Source of the DNA: Cyrtodaria siliqua
Taxonomy: Eukaryota; Mollusca; Bivalvia; Adapedonta; Hiatellidae
Length of the DNA: 64,000 bases
Direction: 5' to 3'
Assembly: GCA_037043455.1 (NCBI GenBank)
Contig: JAWPHD010006807.1
Coordinates: 1-64,000, forward strand
Positions 16,001-55,225 of this stretch are shown piece after piece; positions within the stretch are counted from its first letter, which is position 1, and the number at the start of each line of letters is the position of its first letter. A program made the position numbers and the translations under genes. A model generated the notes under the pieces. It did no database searches and was not told the origin of the DNA. It was given only the letters and a program-made list of their open reading frames with translations.

Positions 16001-19000
16001 ATCATAAATTTATGTTATAATTTGAAGGGGAAATAATTATGTTTCACTTCCGGTTTTTGGATATTCTAAAATGCGGCGTTTTTGATTAATAAAATGCGGT
16101 GCTTTTAGAAATCATCAATAATAATTATATGGCAGGGAATCATGTTGATAAAAAAGGTCTCATACATTAATTTTAAAACTGTATGTCAACATAAAATATT
16201 TATAACAAAATAAAACATTAATTTAATAATATCTAATCTTTTTTAATCTTTTATTACAATAATTTACATATTCTAGTTGTGATCATTTATAACAAAACTC
16301 ATTAACAATACTATTTATAATTAAATAGATAACTTGGGACTTGTAATGATCAGTAATGTTGTTTATGATATTCAATAAACACAGAGTAAATGCATGTAAT
16401 TGTTCATAAATTATGCACCAGAGTGGTAAAATAAAATAATATTTTGTTGGGCCCCTAACTTTTGGGCTGGGCCCCTAAAAATTCTAAGTCAGGGGCCCAG
16501 CTGGCTCCTAGCTAAATAGAGCTAGTTGGTGCCCCTGTCTACCATATGTGCCTAGGGCAGGACCCCTCAACATCACGGCATTATGTCTGAATGTTTTGTG
16601 GTGCATCGACTGTATGTGGGGACCTCCGTTTTAAGTCTCGTCCGAAAGACTGGTTAGTTGGGAAATACTTCTAAATAATTTGATAATTAACCCAAAATGG
16701 TCCTGGCTGGGATTGAACCTGTGATCCCTGGGTTACTAAGCCACAATGCTATCACTACACCACAGCGGCAACCTCTAACTACTACACCACCGAGGCCACC
16801 TTAGGTAGGTGCAAACACATAGTTCTCTTTTATGTTCATCCATATTTAACATCAGTTTCAAAAAAACAATGTATAAAGAATTTATTAAAAGTTGAAGATA
16901 TAATATTGTAATTTATAAAAGAGAAAGTGAGGGCCTAATTGAATTTTATATAAAGTGCAAGTAAACCATGCATTTCTGCTGATATAATATCTTAACATCC
17001 CTGATGTAATTATGAATCCCTCACCTTTGAGCTTTCTCGATTGGCTGAAAACATCTGAGTTCCGCGTCCTCTGGTAGTGGAAGGTCTTCATCTGAGGAGG
17101 AAGATAAAGGTTTATCACTGATCACCATATATTTGCATTTACAGAACAAAGGGCCTTTACAGGGCTCCAAGAATATTTTTTTAGGGGACTAGCCCAGGGC
17201 TTGTGGGTCCTGAAAATCCACTAGCCCTGTTTTTTCTCCCAAGCTCTGTCTTTTTTACTTGCCTTAAAAATAATATGTCTATTTGTTTTTGTCTTTGGCA
17301 GTTATCATTTATCTTGTTTGGAAATACTTTTACCTGTTTACATATCTTGTTATCACAATTTTAAATTTATTTAAATTAACCAGCTCACTGAGACCTGACT
17401 CTATCTATTACTTATACCCAGCTGACGACATCTCATTATGTTAAAGCTGATTCTGATTTAACGGATTGAGATACCCATTATAATTCATTAAATACCGAGA
17501 AAATTAAAAAAAAAAATCAGTAATTCTTATCTACTCATAACCAATAGTTTTTTAGCATTACCCCACCCACAAATTGTATACAGGGATAAATGTTTTATTA
17601 CAGGTGCCTGACTGGCGTGTGTTTTTTATACACAGATCGTGTAATTTAGGCAGTGGGATTAATTTTTTTTGGACTAGCCTGACGGACTACCTGCATAGAA
17701 TTTGCTACAAGCCCGACTTCAATTTTGAAAAGCCCCGGGCGTCGGGCTATCCAATTTCTGGAGCCCTGCTTAACTCTTTTATTGTAACTGATAGCCCTAA
17801 ATTTTAAAGAAGACGAGTTCCATTCTTCTTCTTCCAGGTAAACTTTGAACCTCATAATGAACGAGTATTCTCGAAGTTGGTCCCTATATTTTAATGCTGA
17901 GTTCCCTCTTTTCTATAAATCAATAAATTATCATATTTATAAATTTTCCATATATGGTAATTTAAAACTATGATGTCATAGTTCTCAAAATGGCTGCTTC
18001 CATATCCGTTTCAGAAGAACCTTGTAATGGTCGCGTCTGTTTTATTTATCATCCGATTTTGATAAATCTTTCACCATTTTCCATGTTTTCCAGAACTCTC
18101 AATAATAAAGATGCTTACATCCCTTTAATATGTATGTCTATTTTACTAGCTTACATTTGGAGACGTCAAGTTCTCTGTCCTTTGTCTGGTGTGTCTGTAT
18201 ACTGTTGAGGACTTTACACAGGTTACCCCACAGACTGCAATGGAAGATGAAGATACAGAACAACTGTAACAAATGACAACCAAGCAGAGTGATAGTTGTG
18301 TGTTTGTCCTTGGTCTATAGTAGTATGAGTGTTTCTTCATGTAAATGTTTATTAGAAGTATTCATCAATTTTTCACTCTCTATATTTAAAGACAATATAG
18401 GACAGCCAGAAAAAAATCCAAGACAAACTGAGCTTGAGTGTTTGTTAATGTTGATAAGGAAAAAAAAACTTAATTTGTAAATTTAACCCATATAATGTCC
18501 TTCATTGTGACCTTGATCTTTATATTTTAGTATGGCCATGTCGATGTTGTCATGATAAGTATATATTGAAAGTTTGATGAAGAAATATCAAGAAATGAGA
18601 AAGTTATAGCCAACGTTAAGTTTTCGTGACGGACTGACGGATGGATGGACGACAAAGTGATCCCTATCTATCGCATTTTTCTTCGAAAAGGCGAAACAAT
18701 AAAAATATATTATGCCCATAATGTACTTAAATATGCACATGAATGCATGTCACTATTTAATTCTATCAAGACATTTCATTCTCTATATCACCCCAATATA
18801 TCTAACTCCAGCTAAGAAGTAAAACTCACACCTTGACTTAAGTCTGTATCAATATATCACTATACATTATAAATATGCACTTACGGGGAAAGTTTGAGAA
18901 CTGGTCTGTCAAAGTTTTGAGGGTTTAACTTGAACCAGTCAAGGAGCAGTTTGACTGCAGGAAGGGTGAAGTATTCTCGAACTTTGTGTTCCTTGGTGGG

Positions 19001-22000
19001 CGTGAACTGGAGAAGGATGTCTAACATCAGCACTGAAATGTAAACAATGACACAGTCTAACATCAGCACTGAAATGTAAACAATGACACAGTCTAACATC
19101 AGCACTGAAATGTAAACAATGACACAGTCTAACATCAGCACTGAAATGTAAACAATGACACAGTCTAACATCAGCACTGAAATGTAAACAATGACACATT
19201 AGGCATACAAGCTTCTGATACTGGAGAAGGATGTCTAACATCAGCACTGAAATGTAAACAATGACACAGTCTAACATCAGCACTGAAATGTAAACAATGA
19301 CACAGTCTAACATCAGCACTGAAATGTAAACAATGACACAGTCTAACATCAGCACTGAAATGTAAACAATGACACAGTCTAACATCAGCACTGAAATGTA
19401 AACAATGACACAGTCTAACATCAGCACTGAAATGTAAACAATGACACAGTCTAACATCAGCACTGAAATGTAAACAATGACACATTAGGCATACAAGCTT
19501 CTGATACTGGAGAAGGATGTCTAACATCAGCACTGAAATGTAAACAATGACACAGTCTAACATCAGCACTGAAATGTAAACAATGACACAGTCTAACATC
19601 AGCACTGAAATGTAAACAATGACACAGTCTAACATCAGCACTGAAAGTCTAACATCAGCACTGAAATGTAAACAATGACACAGTCTAACATCAGCACTGA
19701 AATGTAAACAATGACACATTAGGCATGATAACTCAACAGAAGCAGACAATAAAGAAAAACTAGAAGGGTGTTCCATGGAACACTTGTGTCACCTGTCGTG
19801 TTCTTTTCAAGTCATGGCCAGTTATGAGCTTGCTTAGGTTGCAGGTTAAAGTTTTATGAAAGGGGGCTTAACTCTGCCAAAATGAAAGTCAGAGTTACTG
19901 GACATGAGTAACAACATTCCTTAGGTTAAGATGAAAATGTGTGTGAAGTTTCATGAACACAGGTCACATACTTTTCAAGTTATTGCCAAGGTTAGGTTGC
20001 AGGTTAAAGTATAACGGACGGACGACGACAGGCGATGGACAAAGTGATTCCTAAGTGTCTGCGATGCTACATAGGCGACACAAAGAAGAATGTGGAAATG
20101 ACAATATATAATTAGAAATGTGTCCATGATACACGGATGCCCCTACTGAAAACAATCAGAACAAGAAACAAGGATATAGAAACAATAATATATACACAAT
20201 TTGTTTGTTTGAATGGTGTTTTACATCATTTTAGCACATGTTAGGCCATATAATATTTTTTGTGATAGAGGCAGACCACCCCATTTTTCCTTGGTAGAAC
20301 CAGTACTGTATACCTCCCGCCATCCGTAATAATCGACACTATACACACTGTATAAACATCAAAGGACTGAAGGTCCTGAGAGTCGCCAAGATTGAACAGT
20401 GTCTATCTTCTTGATGAGTGTCTATCTTCTTAAAGGTTTTTAAATATATATATATTTTTTTTTTTTTTTTACCCCACCCACACCACCAAATATTGGCCGC
20501 GATTTTTCAAAAAACGGCCGTGCAAAAGACGGCTGCACGGTTGGCTGCCTAATAACTTCCCCTCTGGAAAATAACCGATAGTATGAATCAAATTGAGTAC
20601 AATGTACAATAGTACGAATCTAATTGAGTACGAAGTACGAAATTTCGTAGGAGTTGTCGTTCTTGAATTCATTCTATTTTTAGAAGCAACAACGCCTTGA
20701 TAAATCTGCTAACATACCAAACAAAGGAAACAGACTTATGATTTTAGCAATTTTACGGGAGTTTTTCACACAATTCCGTGGGGCCGGGAGGAGGGTTAGA
20801 ATTCCGTGAGTGAGATATCAAATGTATGCAATAACTACAATATTTACTGACATTTAGTTCCCAATTTGTTATCTGAGTCGAACGTCATGAGCGGCACATC
20901 CGTGGCCTCCATTCATGAAATATATATATGCGTATATTATTGCGCATAGTATTTCAGTTCCTTTTTCAAAAAAGACACGTATATACTGTATACAATGACA
21001 ATTATTCACAATCAGTAGTTATATTATTCGGTATATATAACGTTCATGTCAGTCACCTTATGAAATTAAGTTATACTTGATGCAGTTAAAGGAACTACAT
21101 TCTCGAAGTGCGTAAAGCACCCAATCCGATTTTTTGTGTGTATTAATGCGCATAATATTTCGGTAAACCTACAAAAAAGACATGTTTATACTGTATACAA
21201 TTACAATTATTTCATTATTTCACAATCAGTAGTTATATTAATCGGTATACATAACGTTCATGTCAGTCACCTTATCAAATTAAGTTATATTTGAAACAGT
21301 TAAAGGGGACTACATTGCTTACAACGGTAAAGCGTCTCACCCGTTTGAAAAACTCCCTATTCAGAAATTGCACTATATACATGTACGGTATACACGATGC
21401 TGATGCATGGCGACTCAAAAATGCTACATGTACACACAATAACCTATTATCACTAAAAAAAAGATTATCTTTTATGAGAAATGTCTTACTGAATAAATGA
21501 GGTCACTAGTTCACCATAAATACATTTAGCAATGCTCTTTATGGTCAGTTCATCGTTACAGACCGATTAGGTTGGATTGTCTACATAAAATTCCATAAGG
21601 TGTATGTAGATGTTTAGAAATTTGAAGCCACTGGAGGTGAATGCATTGTTAATGTGTGAAAGTGAGACTACCAGAAGTTTGTAGTACTGCCACCTATAAG
21701 CAGTAGGGGAGCAGCCTTGATATTTTCCTACATCTTTCAAATATCGCAACCACGCTTGACAACGAAAAGTAGTACGTCAACTTTCGGGAACGTCAAAAAA
21801 AAAAAATGTCCGCCATTTTGAATTTTTTAAAACGCATAATTTGGAAAATTGTGACAATTTTTGATCATGAAATTTCATTTCCCCTTTAGGTTTCGTGATT
21901 TTCGTCTGTACCGACTTTTTTTTTAGAAGCTCTACTGCGTGATAAATTCAGACCCGCCTTGTAAAATGTCGAAGCGAGGGGCGATAACTCTAAAAGATGC

Positions 22001-28000: not shown

Positions 28001-31000
28001 TTTTTCAATCAATTTAATAATCAACAGTATGTTGACCACAGCGCTATGGCGTCACACCATTTCGCGTTTTCCAATTAACGCACAAATTCCAGTATATAAA
28101 ACGCATCTATTATCACAAATACAGGGATTTTTTCCACAAAATTGGAAAGCGGCCCAGGTCTGTCCATTTTGAGGGGAAAAAAACGAGTTTATTTTTCATT
28201 TCGGGAAAGATGCAAAATTTCATCAATTAAGTAAATATGACAATACAATGCTTTATTTATATTTTCATTAATTATTTATTATAATACTGACTTCCCAGTC
28301 AGAAATGACTTAACAGACAAAAACACATCGCAGAATTAATGCTTTTTCTCAAATTCTGTGAGACTGCAGCTTTCCAATTGGGAAAACTTTCTGCCACAGT
28401 TGGGAAAAAACATTCGAGTTTTCAATTGGGAAGAGGCGTACATACCTGTACAGAGATGAATCAAGGCATGAAACTGTAGAAATCCTGTTATCATTTCACT
28501 GGCCGATAACTTTCCTCGGAAATCAGGGCTGCAAAATAGTTCACATGTCAGCCAAAATTACATATCAATATCAACAAGAAATTATTCACAAGGAGAGATG
28601 TACAATATGGCTCGTTTTGTCATCACCAGAGGGAACCAGTGACCTTGATTTGCCAAACAACATTTCCATTTGAACAAGGTGCAATTTTCATTTTGCCTAA
28701 TTTGTTTGCAAGCTCTTGACGTTTAACTGCAATATACAAGGCAATTAACACCTGTACAATGAGTCCGTTCTGGATATAAGTAATCTAAAATTAACTGTCA
28801 GTGCGACTTCTAATTACAAATTGATAATTATCTACAATTTGAAACACATTTCGACATAAAACATGCAAAATGTTTCTGGTTCAAGGAAGACTTGATAGCG
28901 TCCATTGACACATTACAGGTTAAAAAGTGAGCGGGAAAACATACAACTAATTACACATTATAAAACATACTACGTCAAGAAAATTAAACATACAAAAACA
29001 TATACATCTTCTTAATAATTAACATTATATACATTCATTTTTAATGGCAAATAAAATCTCACTGTCATAATTCCATCTCTCACTGTCATAATTCCATCTG
29101 CTACAGGCAAATCTCCAACCTCCCAATGGCCTCTCTTTTCTCCCAAATTTATGTAACCGGGTACAGGTAAATGGTGAATAATCGATTCCTAAACAGTGTG
29201 TCCTTGATAGCTCAGTGGTTAGAGCGCTGGTACGGTAAACCAGAGACCCTGGGTTCGAGTCCCGGTTGAGGAATGATTTTTTCACCACCTGTTATATTTG
29301 GGGGCTCGGCCGGGATCCAGGACCGTGTCTGTTAGCATGAAACAGTATGAAAATAAGTCTGACAGCCGGCCTGGAGTTAACTCCACTAGAAATTCAGGGA
29401 CGAATTTCATTCTGGTGGGGGTGTATGTAACCGGGTACAGGTAAATGGTGAATAATCGATTCCTAGCCATATGTCCTCGATAGCTCAGTGGTTAGAGCGC
29501 TGGTACGGTAAACCAGAGACCCTGGGTTCGAGTCCCGGTTGAGGAACGATTTTTCACCACCTGTTATATTTGTGGAGGCTAATGGATAAGTTTTTTCAAG
29601 CTTTTCACGTTCAACTTGAACCTGTGTCATAATATTTGCAAAAGGGAATTTGTGGTCCCACCCCTAAGAACAAACCTTGGCGTATTTATTGCAAAGTTAA
29701 TTTTTAACTTACGTTTCTTTTGTGAGTTTTGCATAGAGTTTTTCCAAGTTTGTGGCAGCGACAGGGAATGGTACTTTCACTGCCAGACTGCGGATGTAGA
29801 AGAAGACCGTCGTCAGTTTGTTACCCTTCGCTGCCTCCAGTATGGCCAACTGGTTGTATGGCTGACCTGCAGAGGAATGGCACAAATAACACTAGGTAGA
29901 AAAGAATGTTTTAATAATGTCTGATTTTGTGATTTTCACAAATTGGGTATCCAACCCACACCTACCGGTATACAATTACAGCAGCTTGCCTACAGAACAG
30001 GTTTAAAACAGGCCGTTCTTGGAATATTCCAAATGTGTAATGTCTGATAAAACAAACAAAAACAAACACTTACAAACATTTACATCATATTCGAAGTTTA
30101 TGAAAAAATCAGAATTAAGAATATCAATAGCTATTGATGGAAATATTTTGATCGACAATCAATACATTTATTTCATTTATTCTATGAAATTAAAGATGAT
30201 TTGGTCAATATGTTTAGTTTTTGCCAACCCGATGTTTGCAAAAGTATATTTAAACCCCCACCATCAACCACAACTATCATTCAAACATGTTTTAAATTTG
30301 TTGTCTAAAGACTTCCAGTATTTATGTATATTCTTTTGCCCATAACATACCATAAGCATCCAACTTCAGTCAAAACATTGACAAATGCGAAGCCTTACAA
30401 AATACTTTTTTTTTTCAGTGGTACGTAGAGATTATTTAACTGCTGGGTTTGGTTAGAAGGAAATCTTTCCCGAGATGGTAGGCATTTTGATTTCCATTAA
30501 AAAGATCCAATGCGCGCGTGTAAAAAGAAAACACGCCTACATTCAAGTGAAGTATTTCCTTATACTAGAATACAGACTTAAATATCTATTACATTTAAAC
30601 CAGTTGTGTATGATTTAAATCAAAATGTTTCATTTGTGGACATCTTAAATAGGTTATTGACATCATAGCTCAAGGTCACAGCTATCCAAGTTAGTTAGAA
30701 TGTCCTTCCACTGAAACATCCTGACACACCTAGTGCACTCAAAGAAATGTAATAAATGTGTACCAGTCACCGTCACACCTAGTGCACTCAAAGAACTGTA
30801 ATAAATGTGTACCAGTCACCGTCACACCTAGTGCACTCAAAGAACTGTAATAAATGTGTACCAGTCACCGTCACACCTAGTGCACTCAAAGAACTGTAAT
30901 AAATGTGTACCAGTCACTGTCACACCTAGTGCACTCAAAAAAATGTAATAAATGTGTACCAGTCACCGTCACACCTAGTGCACTCAAAGAACTGTAATAA

Positions 31001-34000
31001 ATGTGTACCAGTCACCGTCACACCTAGTGCACTCAAAACAAGAGGTCAATGACCTTGAAGCTCTACTGATTGATTTTGATTTCAGGAAGTAGTCGCTACA
31101 GACTTGTTTTTCGAAAAATTATTTTTAGCCATGGCGGCCATCTTGAATTTTCGGCCGACCTGAAATTTTGCTAGGATCAATTAGACACCAAGAGCAACAT
31201 TCCTGTGAAGTTTCATGAAAATCCGTCAGGTAGTTTCAGAGGAGTAGTCGCTACAAGTTTTCATTATATAACTCTATGTAAACAAAGATGGCCGCTGACA
31301 GCCATGTTTAACATCGAATCAAAACGATTTTTGACAAGGACCAACATCATGTCATGCTGATCATTTTAGAAAAAGTCCCATATCAATATCACTTATAGTT
31401 TTCAAGAAGTAGTCGCTACAAACTTGTATTTTGAAAATCTATTTTTAGCCATGGCGGCCAACTTGAATTACCGGCCGACCTGAAATTTTGCTAGGATCAA
31501 TAAGACATCAAGAGCAACATTCGTGTGAAATTTCATGAAAATCCATCATGTAGTTTCAGAGGAGTAATCGCTACAAGTTTTCATTATACAACTCAATGTA
31601 AACAAAGATGGCCACTGGCAGCCATGTTTACCGTCAAATCAAAATAATGTTCGACTCGGATAACCATCATGTCATGTTGATCATTTTAGAAAAAGTCCCA
31701 TATCAATATCACTTATAGTTTTCAAGAAGTAGTCGCTACAAACTTATTTTTTTAAAATCTATTTTTAGCTGTGGTGGCCATCTTGAATTTCTGGCCGACC
31801 TGAAATTTTGCTAGGATCAATTAGACATTAAGAGCAAGATTCCTGTGAAGTTACATGAAAATCCGCCAAGTAGTTTCAGAGGAGTAGTCGCTACAAGTTT
31901 TTACTATATAACTCTACGTAAACAAAGATGGCCGCTGGCAGATATGTTTAACATCGAATCAAAACGATTTTTGACAAGGACCATCATCATGTCATGCTGA
32001 TCATTTTAGAAAAAGTCCTATATCAATATCACTTATAGTTTTCAAGAAGTAGTCGCTACAAACTTGTATTTTGAAAATTTATTTTTAGCCAGGGCGGCCA
32101 TCTTGAATTTCCGGCCGACCTGAAATTTTGCTAGGATCAATAAGACATCAAGAGCAACATTCCTGTGAAGTTTAATGAAAATCCGTCAAGTAGTTTCAGA
32201 GGAGTAGTCGCTACAAGTTTTCATTATATAACTCTATGTAAACAAAGATGGCTGCTGGCAGCCATGTTTATCGTCGAATCAAATCGTTTTCGACAAGGAC
32301 CAACATCATGTCATGCTGATCATTTTAGAAAAAGTCCCATATCAAGAGTTTTCAAGAAGTAGTCGCTACAAACTTGTTTTTTAAAAACTTATTTTTAGAT
32401 TTGGCAGCCATCTTGGATTTCATATAAACATGAATTTTTGCTAGGATCAACTAGACTTCATGGGCAACATTTCTGTAAAGTTTCATGAAAAGCCATTCAG
32501 TAGTTTCAGAGGAGAAGTCGCTACAAAAAAAAGTTTACGGACAGACAGACGGATGGACAGACGGACGACGCACCACGGCATAAGCTCTGCTGATCTCTGA
32601 TCAGTCGAGCTAAAAATGTAATAAATGTGTACTAGTCACCGTCACACCTAGTGCACTCAAAGAACTGTTATCAATGTGTACCAGTCACCGTCACACCTAG
32701 TGCACTCAAAGAAATGTAATAAATGTGTACCAGTCACCGTCACACCTAGTGCATTCAAAGAACAGTAATAAATGTGTACCAGTCAGTCACACCTAGTGCA
32801 CTCAAAGAACTGTAATAAATGTGTACCAGTCACTGTCACACCTAGTGCACTCAAAGAACTGTAATAAATGTGTACCAGTCACCGTCACACCTAGTGCACT
32901 CAAAGAAATCTAATAAAAGTGTACCAGTCACCGTCACATCTAGTGCACTCAAAGAAATGTAATAAATGTGTACCAGTCACTGTCACACCTAGTGCACTCA
33001 AAGAAATGTAATAAATGTGTACCAGTCACCGTCACACCTAGTGCACTCAAAGAAATGTAATAAATGTGTACCAGTCAGCGTCATACTACAAGACTTACCA
33101 TTAAAGGGTACGAGGTAGGCAGCATGCCAGTAGTATGTCTGTGCCTGGTCCACCTGCTGGCGATATCGTGCTGAAATACGTATAACAAGGATTATACATT
33201 TCTTATTAACGATACTTTTCCAATCCTCATTAAAACATGCAACATACCACTCTCAGTGTGGGTAATAGCCATGCTCCGCAAAATGACTCTCGTGGGCTTT
33301 TCAATTCACATGATGTAGGTACAAATAACCTTTACTGTTATAATGAAATAAGTGTTCCACCATGTTTGTTTTCAATTGGGAGATTAAACTACCTTTTTTT
33401 TAACTACATGGAAAAACCCATTCACACAATTCCAGAAATAACTATTGGGATCTTGCGTCAAGAAAGGAAACATTAAGTGCCAGTGAAAACACACGAGAGC
33501 CAGAATCACATAAATGTCCATATCCATGATGCAAGGTCACCTTGGTGGGACATGTGATAAAGACATAGATAACCAAACCTTATTCTCTCTCCATTTACGT
33601 TTTGGCAGTGCTGTTTATTTTGTACTAATTTTTTAACATTTTCACTGAAACACACCTATGCATAAAAATCATTACGTCGAACCAGAAATACTGTGCATAA
33701 AACATTCACTGCCAAAATGTGTAATACCACATAATTATGTCACACCTTGTTTACAGACCTGTGGGAAGACAACCTACCTATATCCCCCAGGTGGACGAGG
33801 CAGTGTTGACACACGTACAGACAGGAACTCTTCTTAGGGGGCGTCACTTTCAACTTCAGTGGGGTCTTCTCTAAAGAATGTTTAAAAAGCAAAATTATAC
33901 ATTTAGCATCCATCAAGTAATAATTTCAACCGATTGCAATTCATAGAGCAGCAACTTCTATAAATAGTCCCACCATTCAACACATTCATATATACACATT

Positions 34001-37000
34001 AACAGTGTGACAGCCTTGCCCAGCACTTTTCATGTTCTTAGGCATGCATATACAGTGTGACAGCCTTGTCCTAAATAATGTATTTAGTTGTACCGGTTTA
34101 TAAATCCGATTGATTTTACCTACTAGAGCTGGCTGCGACTGAAAATATTTGCATGTATAGGATTTAATGTGACTTTTAGAAATCTTTCATCATATCTCAA
34201 TGGTGTCTACTTGTAGAGGTTAATATACGGCCGTTAATATATGGCCGTGGTGTGCCTTTTGTCGATAATGGCACACCTAGTGTCATAATGGCCCGAGGGT
34301 CATGCACTAGGTGTGCCATTATCGACAAAAGGCACACCATGGCCGTATATTTGCCTTTTTATTACATACCTTACTATAAATGTAGAAGAAGAATAAGAAA
34401 AACAGGAACAAATACATCGACAAAGCGTACAAAGTGGTATAATTTATTTACCATTATTTGGCAAGTCTATTAATTTATAAATTATGTTAATTTAGTTTCG
34501 TCCTTGTCTGTGTTTAAAAACCATATCTTCCACTTAAATGATATACTTCAACATTTTAACGTTTATTTATTGGGCGTGAAAATTGCAGTTGAAATTTCAA
34601 CGTCCGCTCTTCATCCATAGTGCTTCAATATGACCTATTTGTGTTGCTTGATGACGTTGACGTCATCGCGTGTGAACAGTTTGTTGCTACTGTGCCGATT
34701 TTCCATAATCCATAATGGCACAGTGTGCCGATTATGGATTTTGAAATAGAACTTTTCTGCTAAAATATGTTAAAAGTTATAATAAGTATGTAATAACAGT
34801 GCTTAATTTATAGTGCTGCCACACTAAAATACCACGGCATCAACACAAAAATGATACCTCACCCGGCCATATGATACCAACAACGGCCAGGGCCTTACAG
34901 TGCTATATGTATGCTGAACGTGAAGCAAGGGAGTTACTAGTACCATGTTATATATGTATGCTGAACGTGAAGCAATGGAGTAACTAGTACCAAGTTATAA
35001 AGTCAAATACCTTTCAATATTCCATAGTAGGCTGACTTTCGTCTAAATGGAAGATCCAGCTTGAATGTCGTACAGATTAATTGTAGAAACTGTGGACAAA
35101 AAAATACACAATAACATTATTGATATTTATACACACCTGCACGTGAAAACAGTGAAAACGCGACAAGATAAAGAAATTGTAGTCAAATTTATACATAACC
35201 ATCCACCAATTTCCTTATTAAAAGACTATATTCCCATATACTGTACTGAAAAAAATACAAAATATCGTAAAACAAAATGACCACCCTATCCGTCAATGTA
35301 AAAGTGAGCGAAAAGTTTAGGTGCACAATCCGCTTTATGTCCTTAAAGTTTGGTCCAAATTTCAGGAGAATACCTCCTCCCATTCAGGCATAATACCCAC
35401 ACATTATATTGAAAAAAAGTAAGAAATTACAAAACAAAATGGCGGCCAATCTGTCATTTTGAATGCAAGTGCAAAAGCAAACTGAACGTGCAAAATCCCC
35501 GAAATGTCATTCAAGCATGGTAAAATTTCAGAAAATAGGAGGGCGTTCCGTGGAAGACATGTGTCATCTGCCGTGTGCTTATTTCAGCTTGGTTAGGTTG
35601 CAGGTTAAAGTTTTATGAAAGGAGAATTAACTCTGCCAAAATTATTATCGGAGTTATTGGACATGTTGAACGACATTTCTTGTGGTAAGATGAAGATGGG
35701 CGTTAAGTTTTATGAAATAGGTCACATGTTTTTCAAGTTATGGCCAAGGTTAGGTTGCAAGGTGTGTCAGACCACAATGACGGACGACAACAGACAATGG
35801 ATAAAGTGATCCTTAAGTGTCTGCCATGCTACGCAGGCGACACAAAAATTAAATCATCCCATTCAGGCACAGTCCTTGTCCAATCAAATCAAATCCTAAT
35901 TACGCTTTATCTCCACAATAGGATCTGACAACACTGCCTTGGAGGTCACGTCAGATCGACCTATCATCTAATCAATATTCATGAGAAGATCAACTAAATT
36001 CAACCAATAAAATCGCACGTTTCATATGTACTTGTCTTCAGACGATGTTCGAGTGAACTAAACAAATGAAAATCCACATAAAACACATATAGATAAAAAA
36101 GATAAAGTCGCCCTGTGTTAATGCTGTGGACTGCACGATAAATTCAAAGAAATGCACCAAATGGCATCTTTTACAGCAAGAATACAAAGAAAATTATAGA
36201 CGCAGTCATTTGGCCCACTAGTGAACTACTGCAACATTCTTTACTACCCGCAAGTGTGATTTTAGTGTGGGTTATGAGTTCAACCCTTCGAAGCGGTAAT
36301 TCTTTTTTTTTTTGAACCGCTATTGAATTCCGTCAATCTTTTACAAGTATTTAACAAGAAGTCAATGACCTTGAAGCTCTACTGATAGGTTTTGATAGCT
36401 AGATTAGCATTCCTGTGAAGTTTCATAAAAATCCGTCAAGTAGTTTCAGAGGAGTAGTAGCTACAAGTTTTTACTATATAACTCTATGTAAAAAAAAGAT
36501 GGCTGCTGGCAGCCATGTTTGACATCCAATCAAAATGAACTTTGGTTAGGACCAACTACATGTTGTGGCAGTCATTTTGGTAAAGGTTCCAAATCAATAT
36601 CACATATGGTTTTTGGGAAGTAGTCACCACAAAATCGCATTTTTAAAATCTATTTTCAGCCGTAGCGGCCATCTTGAATTTCTGGCCGACCCGAATTTTT
36701 GCTGGGATCAACTAGACATCAAGAGCAACATTCCTGTGAAGTTTCATGAAAATCCGTCGAGTAGTTTCAGAGGAGTAGTCGCCACAAGAAAAAGTTTACA
36801 GACTGACGGACGGACAGACGGATGGACGATACACCACGGCAAAAGGTCTGCCGACCTTTGATCAGTCAAGCTAAAAATGGTTGATGTGTTATGTTTGTCA
36901 ACACATTTTTTTTTGGTGTTTTATAAGCTGAAAGTTACGGACATTGTCTCTTTCAATACCGAGCGTAGACTGCTCCTCAGTGTTTGACTGAAACGCGAAA

Positions 37001-40000
37001 TGCGCAGCGAAGCAGTCTATACCGAGCAATTTTGTAGGCTGAAATCTGATTGGCTAATCGTAAGGTCAATCTCACGTGACTGCCAATGCAGTGTTGTCAG
37101 ATCCTTACTTAGTAGCGTAGAGTATCGTAGCATGATAAAACCTCTGAATTTATTGAGACTGGCAGACAGATGGAGAGCTATCCCATACTGCCCTGGGTTT
37201 GACTTACTTGTAAATAGAAGCCACTCGCTGTCTCTAGGAACAGATTCAGGCTTGCTTGGATTTCAGCTCTCTTAACATTCTGTAAAAACAAAACAACATA
37301 CCATGGTATACCTGAATAAACAACATACCCATAAACAACTGTCATGCAGCCATGGTATACATGAATAAACAACATACCTATATACAACTGTCATGCAGCC
37401 ATGGTATACCTGAATGAACAACATACCCATAAACAACTGTCATGCAGCCATGGTATACCTGAATAAACGACATACCTATATACAACTGTCATGCAAACAC
37501 GGTTTACCTGAATAACTGAGGTAAATAGTGCCACGAGGGAGAACATACAAAGGGGATTCCTCCTGTTGTTTGACATGACCAGCGAGGGAGAACATACAAA
37601 GGGGATTCCTCCTGTTGTTTGAAATGACCAGCGAGGGAGAACATACAAAGGGGATTCCTCTTGTTGTCTGACATGACCAGCGAGGGAGAACATACAAAGG
37701 GGATTCCTCTTGTTGTTTGACATGACCAGCGAGGGAGAACATACAAAGGGGATTCCTCTTGTTGTTTGACATGACCAGCGAGGGAGAACATACAAAGGGG
37801 ATTCCTTCTGTTGTTTGACATGACCAGCGAGGGAGAACATACAAAGGGGATTCCTCCTGTTGTTTGACATGAACAGCGAAGGAGAAGATACAAAGGGGAT
37901 TCCTCCTGTTGTTTGACATGACCAGCGAAGGAGAAGATACAAAGGGGATTCCTTCTGTTGTTTGACATGACCAGCGAGGGAGAACAACAAAGGGGATTCC
38001 TCCTGTTGTTTGACATGACCAGCGAGGGAGAACATACAAAGGGGATTCCTCCTGTTGTTTGACATGACCAGCGAGGGAGAACATACAAAGGGGATTCCTC
38101 CTGTTGTTTGACATGACCAGCGAGGGAGAACATACAAAGGGGATTCCTTCTGTTGTTTGAAATGACCAGCGAGGGAGAACATACAAAGGGGATTCCTCCT
38201 GTTGTTTGACATGACCAGCGAGGGAGAACATACAAAGGGGATTCCTCCTGTTGTTTGAGAACATACAAAGGGGATTCCTCTTGTTGTTTGACATGACCAG
38301 CGAGGGAGAACATACAAAGGGGATTCCTTCTGTTGTTTGACATGACCAGCGAGGGAGAACATACAAAGGGGATTCCTCTTGTTGTTTGACTTGACCAGCG
38401 AGGGAGAACATACAAAGGGGATTCCTCTTGTTGTTTGACTTGACCAGCGAGGGAGAACATACAAAGGGGATTCCTCCTGTTGTTTGACATGACCAGCGAG
38501 GGAGAACATACAAAGGGGATTCCTCCTGTTGTTTGACATGACCAGCGAGGGAGAACATACAAAGGGGATTCCTCCTGTTGTTTGAAATGACCAGCGAGGG
38601 AGAACATACAAAGGGGATTCCTCTTGTTGTCTGACATGACCAGCGAGGGAGAACATACAAAGGGGATTCCTCTTGTTGTTTGACATGACCAGCGAGGGAG
38701 AACATACAAAGGGGATTCCTCTTGTTGTTTGACATGACCAGCGAGGGAGAACATACAAAGGGGATTCCTTCTGTTGTTTGACATGACCAGCGAGGGAGAA
38801 CATACAAAGGGGATTCCTCCTGTTGTTTGACATGAACAGCGAAGGAGAAGATACAAAGGGGATTCCTCCTGTTGTTTGACATGACCAGCGAAGGAGAAGA
38901 TACAAAGGGGATTCCTTCTGTTGTTTGACATGACCAGCGAGGGAGAACAACAAAGGGGATTCCTCCTGTTGTTTGACATGACCAGCGAGGGAGAACATAC
39001 AAAGGGGATTCCTCCTGTTGTTTGACATGACCAGCGAGGGAGAACATACAAAGGGGATTCCTCCTGTTGTTTGACATGACCAGCGAGGGAGAACATACAA
39101 AGGGGATTCCTTCTGTTGCTTGACATGACCAGCGAGGGAGAACATACAAAGGGGATTCCTCCTATTGTTTGACATGACCAGCGAGGGAGAACATACAAAG
39201 GGGATTCCTCCTGTTGTTTGAGAACATACAAAGGGGATTCCTCTTGTTGTTTGACATGACCAGCGAGGGAGAACATACAAAGGGGATTCCTTCTGTTGTT
39301 TGACATGACCAGCAAGGGAGAACATACAAAGGGGATTCCACCTGTTGTTTGACATGACCATCGAGGGAGAACATACAAAGGGGATTAGCGAGGGAGAACA
39401 TACAAAGGGGATTCCTCTTGTTGTTTGACTTGACCAGCGAGGGAGAACATACAAAGGGGATTCCTCTTGTTGTTTGACTTGACCAGCGAGGGAGAACATA
39501 CAAAGGGGATTCCTCTTGTTGTCTGACATGACCAGCGAGGGAGAACATACAAAGTGGATTTCTCTTGTTGTTTGACATGACCACCGAGAGAGAACATATA
39601 AAGGGGATTCCTCCTGTTGTTTGACTTGACCAGCGAGGGAGAACATACAAAGGGGATTTCTCTTGTTGTTTGACATCACCACCGAGAGAGAACATATAAA
39701 GGGGATTCCTCCTGTTGTTTGACTTGACCAGCGAGGGAGAACATACAAAGGGGATTCCTCTTGTTGTTTGACATGACCACCGAGAGAGAACATATAAAGG
39801 GGATTCCTCTTGTTGTTTGACATGACCAGCGGATAGACGCCAGTAACATTCACGTCAGTCATATGAAGCAATGGAGGCGCGGTATGAAACACATGCACAT
39901 ATGGAAAAGTTACTTGTGAGAAACAGTTTAAACTGAGAAATATGTATTCTGACTTGAAATATACAGGGGTTCCACTAATTTTCAAATCAAGGAAGTTCAA

Positions 40001-43000
40001 ACTTCCTTCATGTCAATTTTGGAAGTTCAAGGGAAAATTTAAGGAAGTTCACACTTAACGCGACATCACCGTTCGAATTAGTGTTTGTGTCAATAAAATT
40101 TAAATAACTATGCATAGTTCATGTTCTTTAAATGTGTTTTTAAAACATTTAAAGTACATAATTTATGGATATTTTTTAAATTTATTAAATTATTTATGAA
40201 ATTATTCATTAAATTAAATTATATTAAATAGCTTCATGTTTGTATTAAGTTTAAGTTTATTGAATTTATCATCATCATGATTCTTTAATCATCATCATCA
40301 TCAACAACAAAAATCATGGCCCTTTGAAGTGTTGTGTGTGTTAATACAATTTAAATAACTATGCATAGTTCATGTTCTTTAAATGTGTTTTTAAAACATT
40401 TAAAGTACATAATTTATGGATATTTATTAAACTGTATTAATTTAATTAGCTTCATGTTTGCATTAAGTTTCATTGAATGCATCATCATCATCTGTCTGAC
40501 TGTCATCATCATTATCATAATTATCAACACTTTTCATTGTTTGAAGAATATTGTAGAAAATGAAGATTTTATTCAAAACAATTACTCGATCGGCAAACTG
40601 TTGCATCTTCATAATCAGCTAATGTCTCGTAATCCGTTTGCCAATAAACAAACAAACGCATACACATAACCTACCTTTCATAATTAGTCAATCAGTCACA
40701 ACGTCAAAGTAAAAATTTGCGCTGAATGCAAACAATCGCAAACAATCATTATAAATCGGCAGCGTAATATTTTATTTAAAACAATTACACGTTCGGTTAA
40801 GGTATCTGTAATAAACAAACAGGTGCATAAAACGAACCTGCCTTTCATAATTAGTCAATCGGTCACTAACGTCAAAGTAAAAATTCGTGCTGAATGCAAA
40901 CAATCGCAAACATTCATTATAAATCGGCAGTTATTCCGTAATATTTTATTTAAAATAATTAGGTGCATAAAACGATCCTGCCATTCATAATTATTCAATC
41001 AGTCAACAATTAAACGTAATCCACTTTAATCCCATTAATTAATTGCCACTCTTCTTTGAACCCAGAAGCGATGTTTGTTTACATAATACTTGACACAATA
41101 CACAATTCAATTTACACACGTGGCTAACCCCATAATAAAACTGGATCCAACCGGTTTCACCTGTCGAACGCTGTCACAGTAACACAGTGGGTGTTAATTT
41201 AATCGCTTTACAACTCGACTGTGCAGCGTTTGGATGTAATTGGACCCGATGGGCGGAGCTATATCGGTATTTAACCAATTTGACACTGACAGCTGTACGC
41301 CCGCGGTAAAGAAAGTCGGCGTACATTGATGTTTTTGGAAGTTCAGTGTACGTCTTTGATCTCAATTTTCGGCGTACAACTGAAATTTTCGGGCGTAATA
41401 TATGGCCGTACGGCCATTAACGGAAGCCCTGAATATATGAGCCGCAACACGCGAAAATGACCCTTCAGACAATATTTTGACATTTTATGATTTCTGATGT
41501 TTATGAATCTCGGTGATTTTCTCTTTAAAAATCTCTTCATTTTATGTTGATATCTTAATTAAAAATGATTTTAACTCAATTTGAAAAATTAAAAATTGTA
41601 CTCGTCATTAATTTTGACGTTGACGTCGGCGTCTTGGACGACGTCGTTAATTAAATAACAACAAAAAACATGAACAATTATCATTTTCTATAGCATCAAC
41701 TATTTATATTAAGAAAACACATTCCCTATGCTATAATAATTAGGTAAAACACGGAAGTCACGAGAAATTTGATTAGTAAGTAACTGATTACCGGCCGACG
41801 TCATAAATTGTTACTTTATGACGTTGTCGTCTAAACATCCGAAGGGACGTTTTAGTGTGTTGCGGCTCATATACATACCTGTTAATTCTCCTACATTTTG
41901 CGAGCAATATTTTTTCGCTTATTCTCTTATAAATCATTCTTTATTCCATATACAAACTAAAACGTAACTATTTTATTTTATGTCCTCCTGAGTCTCTATA
42001 TACTTGAATTACTAAACACATATTTTATTTTAATCTCTCCTTAACTCTTAAGAGTGTCAACAACAGGTTGACATATTGACGTACATTGTATTTATCAGGT
42101 GCTGACTGACGATCGGACAAAGATTTGAAGGAACGATATGTATATTGAAAATAACAAAACAATGATTCGTAACAGCGTCCTGATCTCACCTGTTTATCTT
42201 TGGCCTGTGTCTGTAGGTTTGTGATCTGATTCTTGAAAGCATGGTTCCAGCTGTAATATATGATAATGACACGTGAAAGCATGCTTCCCAGCTGTAATAT
42301 ATGATAATGACACGTGAAAGCATGGTTTCAGCTGTAATATATGATAATGACATGTGAAAGCATGGTTCCAGCTATAATATATGATAATGATAATGACACG
42401 TGAAATCATGGTTCCAGCTGTAATATATGATAATGGCATGTAAAATCATGGTTCCAGCTGTAATATATGATAATGACATGTAAAATCATGGTTCCAGCTG
42501 TAATATATGATAATGACATGTGAAATCATGGTTCCAGCTGTAATATATGATAATGACATTTGAAAGCATGGTTCCCAGCTGTAATATATGATAATGACAT
42601 GTGAAATCATGGTTCCAGCTGTAATATATGATAATGACATGTGAAAGCATGGTTCCCAGCTGTAATATATGATAATAACATGTGAAAGCATGGTTCCAGC
42701 TGATATATATGATAATGACACATGAAAGCATGGTTCCAGCTGTAATATATGATAAAATAGGATCATTACTAGAGTAACGTGTTCTGGAAGTTTGTATCAC
42801 CTCGAGTAGGTAAATGCCAGATCAAGGATCACACGAGAAGTGGAGCTTTCAGTGTGATCCTGATCTGGCATTTACCTACGAGAGGTGATACAAATTTCCA
42901 GAACACGTTACTCTAGTAATGATCCTTTTATTATATACCTCTTGCACATCATTAACATAGACCTATTTGCATTGCTATTGCATACACATTCAATAAAGCA

Positions 43001-46000
43001 TATTATTTCTGGATAAATTGCAGCGGGAAAATGTATGTAGTTTTAAGGTGTTGGTGTTCATTGGTCTGATCTATATGACGTAACGTCGTCTTGACGTTCT
43101 CGCGCATAGTGGCATAAAACTTGCTTGAATCATTGGAAAAAACGCTGTTCTATTTTTAGTAAAGTAGTGATACTAATTCTATTTTTGGTAGCATAGTGAT
43201 AACCTGTAGTGTGATAAAGGTTGTTGTATTCCATTGTAAGAAAATGAAGGTACTGTATCTATGTATTGATAGGTATATAATAATGATACGTGAAAGCATG
43301 GTTCCAGCTGTAATATATGATAATGACAAGTGAAAGCATGGTTTCAGCTGTAATATATGATAATGACAAGTGAAAGCATGGTTCCAGCTGTAATATATGA
43401 TAATGACAAGTGAAAGCATGGTTCCAGCTGTAATATATGATAATGACAAGTGAAAGCATGGTTCCAGCTGTAATATATGATAATGACAAGTGAAAGCATG
43501 GTTCCAGCTGTAATATATGATAATGACACATGAAAGCATGGTTCCAGCTGTAATATATGATAATGACAAGTGAAAGCATGGTTCCAGCTGTAATATATGA
43601 TAATGACAAGTGAAAGCATGGTTCCAGCTGTAATATATGATAATGACAAGTGAAAGCATGGTTCCAGCTGTAATATATGATAATGACAAGTGAAAGCATG
43701 GTTCCAGCTGTAATATATGATAATGACAAGTGAAAGCATGGTTCCAGCTGTAATATATGATAATGACAAGTGAAAGCATGGTTCTAGCTGTAATATATGA
43801 TAATGACAAGTGAAAGCATGGTTCCAGCTGTAATATATGATAATGACAAGTGAAAGCATGGTTCCAGCTGTAATATATGATAATGACAAGTGAAAGCATG
43901 GTTCCAGCTGTAATATATGATAATGACAAGTGAAAGTATGGTTCCAGCTGTAATATATGATAATGACAAGTGAAAGCATGGTTCCAGCTGTAATATATGA
44001 TAATGACAAGTGAAAGTATGGTTCCAGCTGTAATATATGATAATGACAAGTGAAAGCATGGTTCCAGCTGTAATATATGATAATGACAAGTGAAAGCATG
44101 GTTCCAGCTGTAATATATGATAATGACACATGAAAGCATGGTTCCAGCTGCAATATGATAATCAAATGTGAAAGCATGGTTCCAGCTGTAATATATGATA
44201 ATGACACGGATGTTTAACCAACTACTATTTTGATGTTGTTGCTTTCAATTTTTACACTGTAATACTTAATGTATTTCAAGTATAAACTAGAAAATGTGTC
44301 TATGAGACACATATGCCCCGCTCTGCATTGTGGAAGAATAGTGATCCCTATGTCTGGCCTTCCACTAAAGTGGGGGAGACAATGATGAGGTAACTATAAA
44401 CTTGAACCAAGGTGTGACAGACAAGGGAAAAACTAACATTTTTCTTAAATGTGTAATATCTAAAACAATTCGAAACTAGAACTATCACTGAAGGTGATGA
44501 ATTTCCCCGCTTTTTTGCTCTAGCCGATGATGGGCAAAATCAAGAATAATAAATGTAAAAAATATCTGTTAATTTCTTAATTTGAAAGAAAAGGTCCATA
44601 ATTGTGTAAAAAAAATTGCAGAATCGAAAAAACATTAATGCAGAGACACATCATATCATCACATGAGAACTGTATGTTAGGTGTAATAACAATCCATGAA
44701 AAGTGTTCAAGTAAAAGCACATGAAGTTCATTATGGAGCGAAAAACTCCAAGTCAAATAAAGGGCCGTAATTCTGAAATAAATTAGGCAATCAATGATGG
44801 ATGATGTACAGGGATGTAAGGTCATCAGTTGTTACATGTACATGAAGTTTGGGAACAATCAATTGGAAATGTTTGAGAAAAAATATGTTAACAGGGCATT
44901 ATACAATATTAGAGTGGAAAATTCTAAGTCAAACAAGGGGCCAAATTGATTAGGCAATCAACAATGGGTGATGTAGAGGGACATAAGCATTAAGGTCATC
45001 AATTGTTACGAGTATATAAAGTTTGGGAACAATCCATTCAAAAGTGTTTGAGATATGCAAGTATTAAAAATGTGTTACGCGATGGAACGCGACAAAAATG
45101 TGCGACGGGACGCAACGCGAAGTTGGGGACAAATTGATTCCTATATAGCGCCCACTTCACTTTGTGAAGCAGGGGCATAATAAATTTGCTGAAGCAATTT
45201 CTGAATCAGTTTGTTTGGTGTTTAACGTTGGTTTTCAGCAAATTTTAGGCTATACCAGTATATGATGGTCGAATTTTGGTGGTGGAGGAAGATGACCCAC
45301 TTATTCCTAGATAGCCAGTATTGTATACCTCCCGCCATATGTAAGAATCAACACTTTTGAATCAGTTTTGTTGGTTTTAATAATGACATTCACTTACAGT
45401 TCCTGCTCAACCTTTTTATCTAGAGCGTATTCAAGATCGATGAGGAGGATTTTCTTGTAGATGTCTTCCAACTTCTGTCGGGAAACCCATGTTTCAGAGA
45501 TGGTTTTACTTGAATCTGGGGTGAAAGTACAAAATACTCATGTTTCAGATTACACATACAATGATGTCCTGAACATAAAGCAAATGAATGAAGCCGACCA
45601 AGAATTTATTTTTCAGTATATAAGTTGTGATACCCAATTAGAGATATGAGCCGCAACACACGAAAACGTCCCTTCAGACAAAATTTTGACTTTTTATATT
45701 GTTTGATGTTTATGAAACACGGTGATTTTCTCTTTAAACATCTTTTTATTTTATGTTGATATCTTAATTAAAAATGATTTTATCTCAATTTGAAAATTAA
45801 AGATTGTAATATTAACTGTTAATTTTGACGTTGATGTCGGCGTCTTGGACGACGTCGTTGATTAAATAACAACAAAAACCATAAACAATTACCATTTTCT
45901 ATAGCATCAACTATTTATATTAAGAAAACATATTCCCTATGATATAATAATTAGGTAAAACACGGAAGTATTGAGAATTTTGATTAGTAATTAATTGATT

Positions 46001-48115: not shown

Positions 48116-49730
48116 TGTGCCGCATGTCGCTAGATGCAATTTCATTGGTTGGGTGCACGATCGTAACGCCGCCCTGATCGATTATACACGCGACAGCTGT
48201 TTGACATGAGCTAATCACGTGCTGTTATTGCAAATTACCGCAAATTACCGGCAATTAACCATCCTCGGCAAATAATTGATTTCCTGGAGGTTTTGAACGG
48301 CTTCCGTGTGATCGGTAAATCAAAGGCAAATCCGTTAGTCTACCGGAGAATGCGGGAGATTTGGCATGTATGTATACACGACACAGATGCTATCTGGTAA
48401 TACAGGTTTGCTTAACTGGTATTTTAACTAATTGTGTATGCTGTAGCTAAAAAAATATTTATAAGCAAATGGTAATACTTGTTAAAAGATTGGTATACAA
48501 AAAAAAAAGAAACAAATATCCTTATAGGTGTTAGTGAGAAGTATTGTATCACCACATTTACATAGTTCATCCACATGTGCGAGTATGTTCAAGGAACCCA
48601 GCACAATATAGGAAAAAGAAGAAGATTTCTCTGTCAACCCAATCTCCTTTCACTTTCAGTTGTTTACTTCAGGTTTTTAAATTTCATTCCTCTGAGAACA
48701 TATGCTCAAAATTGTAAATATAATAAATAAATGTGTAAGATCGATTTGATATATATACTTGTATGCGATTTCTCATTTTCCAAATCCATTCAAATTATTT
48801 AGATAGATGTGTATCTATCGGTGCACTGTTCGCAGTAAATCAATGCTAAATACAAAATACGGGACAGTATTTACAATTAACAGAATATTTGTGTAAGTTC
48901 CTGTTAAGGTTTTGAACTAATTTATGCTTATTTGATGTAAAATAACTGCTAATATGCTGAAGTACCCGGTTACCCGTAGCGTCCGGATATGCTAAACAAC
49001 CGTATGCGTGAGTTGTCAAAACACTTGCAATAAAGATTGGTTGCTACAGATAACAACTTGGTATTTGTCAACAAATCAATTGATCGGTAAGTTGTTTCAG
49101 CAAAGTCTGAGATATATAATTATCCTTTAGTAATACCTTAACATTTGGGCCACTGAACTCATATTCAACGAGTTCTTTCGGCTAAGTTTCTGACCAAGAA
49201 CAGGCTATGTCAAGTTATCGCCATTTTCTTTCCATTCTGATTTCTGGGTAATGGCCGATCCCGATAATAATTTAATTGTAAACAACGAAATATACAGTTA
49301 AAATAAACCTGCTGACTATTTAATTAAATATTTATAATATTTTTTCTTTTAGTGATTTAGTATGTTGGTAGTTTTTTGTGAAAACATCAATTACTTGGGA
49401 AAATGACTGTTCCCAAAATTATCACGTGACAGTCATGTGGTCTAATGCTAAAAATCAAATCAACAAGTTTAAGCTTTTTAAAAAAAGAGTATTTCACTTC
49501 GTTACTACTCGACTTGTGTCTAATTACTGTATTCTTATATTATCACTACCAAATCTGCCACACATACGTATCATATTCTCACACGATACCTATTATAGTG
49601 ATTCTGATAACTATTAAATGTATTATAAGATATACGTGTAAACGGAGCAGTAAATGATTCTTACAACAATGTATCATGTGAGAACCATATACAATTTGAC
49701 TGATAATTATATGTGTTTCATGAAAAGTAT
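48116..49730. other. No feature recognised
   Basis: AT-rich sequence without supported genes. Short ORFs near 49378-49657 have no recognisable homology and look random. Confidence 0.4.
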
Positions 49731-53576: not shown

Positions 53577-53946
53577 CTATGAGTTTGTCTTTTTATATTC
53601 ATAGTTCTGTGTTATATTTAGATTGCCTATTAATGCTGCCTTTGTTAGAGGATATAGCCTGACGGTCATTTTTTTATTTACACTTTCCCGTTTTATTGGG
53701 ATGGCAATAGGATAAGAGTGAGGTTTAGTGCACCCTAGAACCTGGTTTAAACCCCGGACTCCTTTTTTAATGCCCCTCACCGTTCCAAGGCGGTAGGCTT
53801 AGTGTCAATCCTTTTATGTTTGTGATATCATATACCTGGCCTTTGATTTATCCTTGTAATTGTTGTTGGTTTCTTTGCCTGTGTTTCGTACTATGATCCT
53901 TGAATGCTACATTTCCCGTTAGACCTTTATATTTACTTTGTAAGTG
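53577..53946 (+). mobile_element. 3' end of a retroelement, same family as 59052-60214
   Basis: It shares with the minus-strand element GTTTAAACCCC-type, CCGTTCCAAGGCGGTAG and CTTTTATGTTTGTGATATCA-like sequence in the same order. No reverse transcriptase remains. The 35-bp minisatellite starts right at its end. Confidence 0.7.
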
Positions 53947-55225
53947 CTGGATATGAGCCGCAGTTTCAGTATTTGTAAGTGCTGGATATGAACCGCAGTT
54001 TCAGTATTTGTAAGTGCTGGATTTGAGCCTCAGTTTCAGTATTTGTAAGTGCTGGATATGAGCCTCAGTTTCAGTATTTGTAAGTGCTGGATATGAGCCG
54101 CAGTTTCAGTATTTGTAAGTGCTGGATATGAGCCGTGCTGGATATGAGCCGCAGTTTCAGTATTTGTAAGTGCTGGATTTGAGCCGCAGTTTCAGTATTT
54201 GTAAGTGCTGGATATGATCCGCAGCTTCAGTATTTGTAAGTGCTGGATATGAGCCGTGCTGGATATGAGCCGCAGTTTCAGTATTTGTAAGTGCTGGATA
54301 TGAGCCGCAGTTTCAGTATATGTAAGTGCTGGATATGAGCCGTGCTGGATATGAGCCGCAGTTTCAGTATTTGTAAGTGCTGGATATGAGCCACAGTTTC
54401 AGTATTTGTAAGTGCTGGATATGATCCGCAGTTTCAGTATTTGTAAGTGCTGGATATGAGCCGTGCTGGATATGAGCCGCAGTTTCAGTATTTGTAAGTG
54501 CTGGATATGAGCCGTGCTGGATATGAGCCGCAGTTTCAGTATTTGTAAGTGCTGGATATGAGCCGCAGTTTCAGTATTTGTAAGTGCTGGATATGATCCG
54601 CAGTTTCAGTATTTGTAAGTGCTGGATATGAGCCATGCTGGAAATGAGCCGCAGTTTCAGTATTTGTAAGTGCTGGATATGAGCCGCAGTTTCAGTATTT
54701 GTAAGGGCTGGATATGATCCGCAGTTTCAATATTTGTAAGTGCTGGATATGAGCCGTGCTGGATATGAGCCGCAGTTTCAGTATTTGTAAGTGCTGGATA
54801 TGAGCCGCAGTTTCAGTATTTGTAAGTGCTGGATATGATCCGCAGTTTCAGTATTTGTAAGTGCTGGATATGAACCGCAGTTTCAGTATTTGTAAGTGCT
54901 GGATATGAGCCGTGCTGGATATGAGCCGCAGTTTCAGTATTTGTAAGTGCTGGATATGAGCCGCAGTTTCAGTATTTGTAAGTGCTGGATATGATCCGCA
55001 GTTTCAGTATTTGTAAGTGCTGGATATGAGCCGCAGTTTCAGTATTTGTAAGTGCTGGATATGATCCGCAGTTTCAGTATTTGTAAGTGCTGGATATGAG
55101 CCGTGCTGGATATGAGCCGCAGTTTCAGTATTTGTAAGTGCTGGATATGAGCCGCAGTTTCAGTATTTGTAAGTGCTGGATATGATCCGCAGTTTCAGTA
55201 TTTGTAAGTGCTGGATATGAGCCGC
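53943..55225 (+). repeat. 35-bp minisatellite, about 36 copies
   Basis: Unit AAGTGCTGGATATGAGCCGC then AGTTTCAGTATTTGT. Several copies contain an extra 15-bp partial unit (GTGCTGGATATGAGCC), which itself recurs at regular spacing. Confidence 0.96.

Follow-up and report, generated by a model that had tools for sequence, protein, structure and literature searches.

Tandem repeats whose unit spans an exon–intron boundary of their host gene have been described in amphioxus as "mirages", in the globin genes BflGb6 and BflGb9 and in Adh3 (PMC3087553), with PGBD5 added as a mirage gene and troponin C cited in a later report (PMC3902484). According to the first of these reports, mirage clusters show length instability, and Adh3 data together with reverse transcription PCR suggest that regular splicing is undisturbed by them (PMC3087553). 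A related human case is the 844ins68 allele of CBS, in which the intron 7/exon 8 junction is duplicated and the more distal site is described as strongly favoured (PMC2630376; this source writes of "donor" sites, whereas the title of the work that it cites says 3' splice site selection). Here we analyse a 64,000-nt stretch of the genome of the bivalve Cyrtodaria siliqua (assembly GCA_037043455.1, contig JAWPHD010006807.1, positions 1 to 64,000; hereafter the window), which carries 16 exons of a gene for SMG7, a factor of nonsense-mediated mRNA decay (NMD), and in this gene a minisatellite that repeats the 3' splice site of exon 4. By its anatomy, this array is a mirage of the amphioxus type, and SMG7 has another array, at exon 12, with a unit that likewise spans an exon–intron boundary (23 + 17 nt of intron and exon at exon 4, 22 + 14 nt at exon 12). 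Arrays of this kind are thus already described, although the first-pass annotation of this DNA knew of no case seeded precisely at a splice acceptor of an NMD factor.

On the minus strand, to which all SMG7 features belong, positions 42234–44208 hold 36 copies of a 40-bp unit, namely 35 decoy acceptors and the real acceptor of SMG7 exon 4, in agreement with the roughly 35-fold multiplication that had been proposed. Each unit consists, as annotated, of 23 nt of intron 3 ending in AG and 17 nt of exon 4 CTGGAACCATGCTTTCA, with one extra exonic base in three of the 36 copies, and the claim that every unit keeps an acceptor is borne out by an AG at positions −2/−1 in 36/36. These copies were counted on the minus strand with a scan of the acceptor-plus-exon core allowing up to 4 edits, which placed 23 in a distal block and 13 in a proximal, exon-4-side block; the final proximal copy is the genuine exon 4 start at 42250. 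A stricter scan (≤3 mismatches, no insertions or deletions) found 33 core copies in the window, all within 42234–44188, and none in 100 dinucleotide shuffles of the window. Tandem Repeats Finder (TRF) recovered the same two blocks, both with a 40-bp unit: 12.8 copies with 90% matches at 42234–42755 (the proximal block, 12 decoys plus the real acceptor) and 23.4 copies with 96% matches at 43274–44206 (the distal block, 23 decoys, placed at 43274–44208). Copies mostly follow one another at 40 nt, although spacings of 38, 41 and 46 nt also occur and a single gap of 568 nt separates the blocks. The array had been placed at 42251–44208 as one continuous repeat; the repeat stands, its start and its continuity do not, since the 17 exonic nt lie below 42251, so that the repeated stretch ends at 42234, and a 518-bp insert (42756–43273, bounds from TRF) divides it.

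This insert carries at its exon-4-side end a hairpin of two inverted 69-nt arms (42756–42824 and 42861–42929; 94% complementary) and has the look of a small mobile element; a search of the window gave no other copy of it. Other readings of the array itself were also considered. That it belongs to a repeat with further members in the window was rejected, as both a 120-base query and the core pattern matched only the array, and seeding of donors within it was rejected in the absence of any GTRAG motif in 42251–44206. Translated in one frame, as for an exonised protein repeat, the distal block matched none of 47 public protein candidates at E ≤ 0.001. One exact 30-base array pattern had no match in IMG/VR, which is a weak test for animal DNA.

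The identity of the host gene as SMG7 is firmly supported by its predicted product. Homology and splice signals were used to place the exons: 15 of them join into a single 532-codon frame with consistent phases, and the addition of exon 1 (coding part 49137–49162, MSSVAQMLR with the last codon split) completes 16 exons and 541 codons without a stop. The 532-residue protein is 82% identical to the SMG7 model of Mercenaria mercenaria and matches the Pfam families EST1 (PF10374, 2.1e-21) and EST1_DNA_bind (PF10373, 1.1e-42), and its first 468 residues align with the solved human SMG7 (PDB 1ya0) at an E-value of 4.9e-121. A 71-residue piece around exon 4 had no match in a Pfam search and matched 1ya0 at 1.2e-25. 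The last SMG7 exon found lies at 13062–12873, and because the Mercenaria model extends past it, the C-terminal part of the protein is probably encoded outside the window. As a separate observation, the Mercenaria SMG7-like protein P0001 has a precomputed PF00530 domain, which we take to be SRCR, alongside its SMG7 domains and may be a fused gene model.

Exon 4 itself (42190–42250, 61 nt) encodes WNHAFKNQITNLQTQAKDKQ, and its frame agrees with those of the neighbouring exons, that is, exon 3 (45398–45515), the donor of which pairs with the exon 4 acceptor, and exon 5 (37208–37279, placed by homology and splice signals). The annotated splice coordinate of 42250/42251 is therefore upheld. Because the first base of exon 4 completes the Leu codon of exon 3, the 17 repeated exonic nt comprise the end of this codon, the codons for WNHAF and the first base of a Lys codon. 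The annotation had the repeated codons stop just before Lys67; WNHAF is correct, whereas the lysine is Lys66 in the human protein (counted from R10 in the 1ya0 alignment) and Lys65 in the clam. We take this lysine to be the phosphoserine contact of SMG7. In the Mercenaria model P0001 the sequence is KKVEQELWNHAFKNQ and FTLTVNMMDILLQ, with no insert. Beside both arrays the genuine exons are intact, with an open 541-codon frame and consistent phases.

Next, we compared the decoys with the real acceptor, using a position matrix built from the other 14 acceptors of the gene (a small sample). The real exon 4 site scores 7.95 and 31/35 decoys score at least as high, within a decoy range of 3.86 to 10.44; 28/35 are identical to the real site over positions −20 to +3. 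A branch-point-like motif matching the yTnAy consensus lies 45 to 15 nt upstream of 33/36 acceptors, and in 31/36 it sits at −24, where it coincides with the last exonic bases of the unit before. Core signals thus hardly tell the real site from its copies. Only the real acceptor directly precedes the rest of exon 4 and its donor 61 nt downstream; splicing to the nearest decoys would create exons of 102, 142, 182 and 228 nt, and to the distal block exons of more than 1.1 kb.

The products of such mis-splicing can be predicted. From 34/35 decoys, an in-frame stop is met inside the lengthened exon 4, and from the remaining one (42291, adding 41 nt) the frame is shifted and a stop follows after reading into exon 5, so that every one of the 35 decoys leads to a premature stop, ahead of further exon junctions. 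A premature stop with many exon junctions downstream makes a transcript an NMD substrate, and decoy-spliced SMG7 transcripts are thus predicted NMD targets. This overturns the earlier expectation that mis-splicing would insert open repeats. The premise, that the unit has no stop codon, holds for the consensus unit; the stops come from variant copies, from the insert and from shifts of the frame. Likewise, the statement that only every third distal acceptor would keep frame is roughly right for 40-nt units, although insertions, deletions and the 518-bp insert disturb this register and the in-frame acceptors carry stops. Decoy errors may thus be cheap at the protein level, a possible reason why the array is tolerated.

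Variation among the copies bears on the history of the array. The linker CGTG occurs in only 3/36 copies, namely the real site (42250), its neighbouring decoy (42291) and the outermost copy of the array (44185), with CTTG in 19 copies (all distal), CATG in 7 (all proximal), TGTG in 3, and CACA, TCCT, AATG and ATTA in one each. Variants private to the proximal block include CATGATTT in 5/12 decoys and one extra G in 3. Mean pairwise identity with gaps reaches 0.965 among distal copies and 0.898 among proximal copies, and between the two blocks it is 0.915 (0.956, 0.817 and 0.856, respectively, without gaps). The high uniformity of the distal block indicates that this block is recently homogenised or young. 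Overall, concerted evolution of the inner units, with edge units exempt, could account for the restriction of CGTG to the edges and for the uniform distal block, but the expected uniformity is confined to that block, copies in the proximal block being on average less like one another than like distal copies.

The second acceptor-seeded array, absent from the earlier annotation, lies at 19019–19718 and holds 17 decoys plus the real acceptor (19033/19032) of exon 12 (18885–19032, numbered by the coding exons found). Its 36-bp unit combines 22 nt of intron tgtgtcattgtttacatttcag and 14 nt of exon TGCTGATGTTAGAC; among the 18 junction copies, 17 are complete and one decoy has a truncated intron part, the last copy being the exon 12 start at 19032. 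The decoys are nearly all perfect, as 16/17 match the real site in every one of the 36 nt. There is also a larger period of 286 bp, the spacer of which contains ATCCTTCTCCAGT, by eye the next 13 exonic bases, and at least two rounds of duplication therefore seem to have crossed this acceptor. The nearest 4/17 decoys would keep the frame, open over the exons in the window, while adding 36 to 144 nt, and the other 13/17 would give a premature stop.

Taken together, we consider the exon 4 array to be, probably, a boundary-spanning minisatellite that is mainly a passenger, with a small cost to SMG7 output that depends on copy number, and no designed regulator. In its history, 40 bp spanning the junction of intron 3 with exon 4 would have been tandemly duplicated upstream, slippage or unequal exchange would have enlarged the array, and an insertion would later have divided it into two blocks. 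The spliceosome would mostly pick the real, most downstream acceptor, as exon definition and the precedents suggest, because only this acceptor leads straight into the remainder of exon 4, with a donor 61 nt downstream, the adjoining intron being 3.1 kb long. Transcripts spliced to a decoy would be destroyed by NMD because all of them carry a premature stop, and with the last acceptor preferred and faulty transcripts removed, the array would be tolerated. Several points weigh against this explanation. Most decoys equal the real site in core signal, the upstream decoys are transcribed first, and the exons of 102, 142 and 182 nt made from the nearest decoys would also be acceptable to exon definition. 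Separate homogenisation of both blocks is unsupported for the proximal one, the copies of which, in gapped comparison, resemble one another less (0.898) than they resemble distal copies (0.915). Being a gene model, the Mercenaria protein is silent on whether the array is present in that species. According to the amphioxus authors, cryptic splice sites could be provided by many of the mirage repeats (PMC3087553). Lastly, arrays cluster at the splice sites of SMG7, which suggests that seeding there may be no pure accident.

This clustering is an argument for the strongest of the alternatives, that minisatellites of this lineage arise preferentially at exon–intron boundaries through duplication linked to splicing or transcription, SMG7 having several of them. 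Beyond the two arrays that copy an acceptor, a 49-bp array (37301–37515) ends 22 nt before exon 5, its unit holding an acceptor-like TATGTTGTTTATTCAG that resembles the real TATGTTGTTTTGTTTTTACAG (by eye, unscored). Two further arrays lie on the donor side with the donor itself uncopied: a 49-bp array at 32614–33083, which starts at a distance of 16 nt from the exon 8 end, and two copies of a 47-bp unit at 34904–34999, which start 12 nt from the exon 6 end. Exon 15 has a CAGA microsatellite at 7 nt from its end. For the test of clustering, overlapping TRF rows and two arrays divided by inserted sequence were merged by hand, giving 14 arrays in the coding span of this one gene, and the distance cutoffs were chosen after the distances were known. 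Six of the 14 arrays have a splice site no more than 25 nt away, whereas random placement would give 0.95 (P 0.00013) and circular shifts 1.09 (P 0.00058). The signal depends on the cutoff, with 3/14 arrays at 15 nt (P 0.02–0.03), 6/14 at 50 nt (P 0.0025–0.004) and 6/14 at 100 nt (P 0.014–0.034); with 17 unmerged arrays, 6 lie within 25 nt (P 0.00025–0.0015) and 6 within 100 nt (P 0.038–0.081). At 25 nt it persists without the exon 4 array (5/13, P 0.0009–0.0027) and without both this array and the CAGA microsatellite (4/12, P 0.006–0.013). A run without exon 1 placed 5/14 arrays within 16 nt (P 0.0002) and, among six minisatellites picked afterwards (units of 30–60 bp, at least 90 bp long), 5/6 within 25 nt, as did 0/20000 placements.

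Boundary arrays reported from several amphioxus genes (PMC3087553, PMC3902484) and the copying of an acceptor in two SMG7 arrays point in the same direction as this excess (P 0.0001–0.0006). On the other side, it comes from a single gene and a cutoff picked after the distances had been seen (3/14 arrays at 15 nt, 5/14 at 16 nt), three of the six near arrays copy no splice site and a fourth merely resembles one, and the weaker test of spanning an acceptor, with two arrays observed, gives P 0.028 for 6 arrays and 0.076 for 14. Given the post hoc cutoffs and the single gene, the clustering is a lead only, and preferential seeding has in our view perhaps one chance in a few of being correct. Similarly tentative is the broader suggestion that junction-born minisatellites are recurrent in SMG7 and that their ladders of equal acceptors could make the choice of 3' splice site, first transcribed or exon-defined, readable copy by copy.

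The exon 4 array could instead act as a brake coupled to NMD, a share of SMG7 transcripts that depends on copy number being spliced to decoys, stopped and degraded by the pathway in which SMG7 itself acts, so that output is tied to array length and possibly to NMD activity. The premature stop from 35/35 decoys ahead of further exon junctions, and the strength of most of these decoys, equal to that of the real site, would fit such a brake, as would the report that in human cells depleted of DHX34 or NBAS the SMG7 mRNA goes up along with other NMD factor mRNAs (PMC3783168). The same report names long 3' untranslated regions or upstream open reading frames as the known NMD-inducing features of these mRNAs (PMC3783168), and the amphioxus data suggest no effect on splicing (PMC3087553). 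Premature stops do not of themselves make a feedback loop: loss of a non-productive isoform need not alter the productive one, and a closed loop does not follow from it. Furthermore, a brake would not need the nearest 4/17 exon 12 decoys to be in frame and open over the exons in the window. We thus regard a regulatory role of this kind as improbable, and the mainly passenger minisatellite remains the preferred explanation. Least probable is an assembly artefact that inflated the copy number or the whole array, since the uniform distal block and the 16/17 exon 12 decoys identical to the real site over 36 nt, which it could account for, stand beside block-private variants, insertions and deletions, and an insert in the exon 4 array that are not expected of a looped assembly, with both arrays in an otherwise intact 16-exon gene.

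Other repeats are abundant in and around the gene. Intron 4 contains a 49-bp array of about 47 copies (37534–39831), with a 147-bp higher period over most of its length. A 49-bp repeat at 30725–31037 and the same repeat at 32614–33083 flank a 320-bp tandem repeat (31080–32526), which looks like an element inserted into a 49-bp array, and a similar 320-bp repeat lies at 14107–15547. An 18-bp repeat of about 690 copies occupies positions 1–12273 up to the window edge, beyond the last SMG7 exon found and perhaps within the gene. Upstream of SMG7, a 35-bp array of about 1.3 kb (53937–55225) has a unit that contains GTAAGT and TTTCAG on the plus strand, and the open reading frame listing has 19 entries between 49 and 64 kb.

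If the decoys are used, an NMD factor would make substrates for its own pathway. More generally, 35 near-identical acceptors ahead of one real exon offer a natural test of 3' splice-site choice where the signal carries little information, and as the copies differ in position, RNA would directly show which acceptor wins. The notion that minisatellites start at splice junctions also becomes a countable hypothesis.

Among known systems, human internal tandem repeats resemble the clam arrays as minisatellite growth at an exon–intron boundary that is able to alter splicing, although they are described as 30-bp units on average, repeated four times, in primate duplicates, with novel introns reported (PMC2812944). 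The 31-bp variable number tandem repeat of CBS, c.1444_1467+7, also runs, by its name, from exon into intron, and it differs in lying on the donor side, with 16–21 repeats, whereas the clam array is on the acceptor side (PMC2630376). CBS 844ins68 shares a duplicated intron/exon junction with competing splice sites, with one extra copy in a human enzyme gene as compared with 35 decoys in the clam (PMC2630376). In open-licence literature on boundary repeats, mirages and mollusc repeats, no boundary array from a mollusc was recognisable from titles and the beginnings of abstracts. The closest relatives are the amphioxus mirages, in which, as here, a tandem unit spans an exon–intron boundary and the authentic exon is intact (PMC3087553). 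In BflGb6 in particular, the unit also consists of the 3' end of an intron and the 5' part of an exon, in 6 and 3 units of 150–160 bp in two haplotypes, compared with 35 decoys of a 40-bp unit in the clam (PMC3087553). Unlike the amphioxus mirages, those of SMG7 are found in a mollusc, with an insert inside one array and two such arrays in one gene, and they carry a class described in a few genes of amphioxus over to a mollusc.

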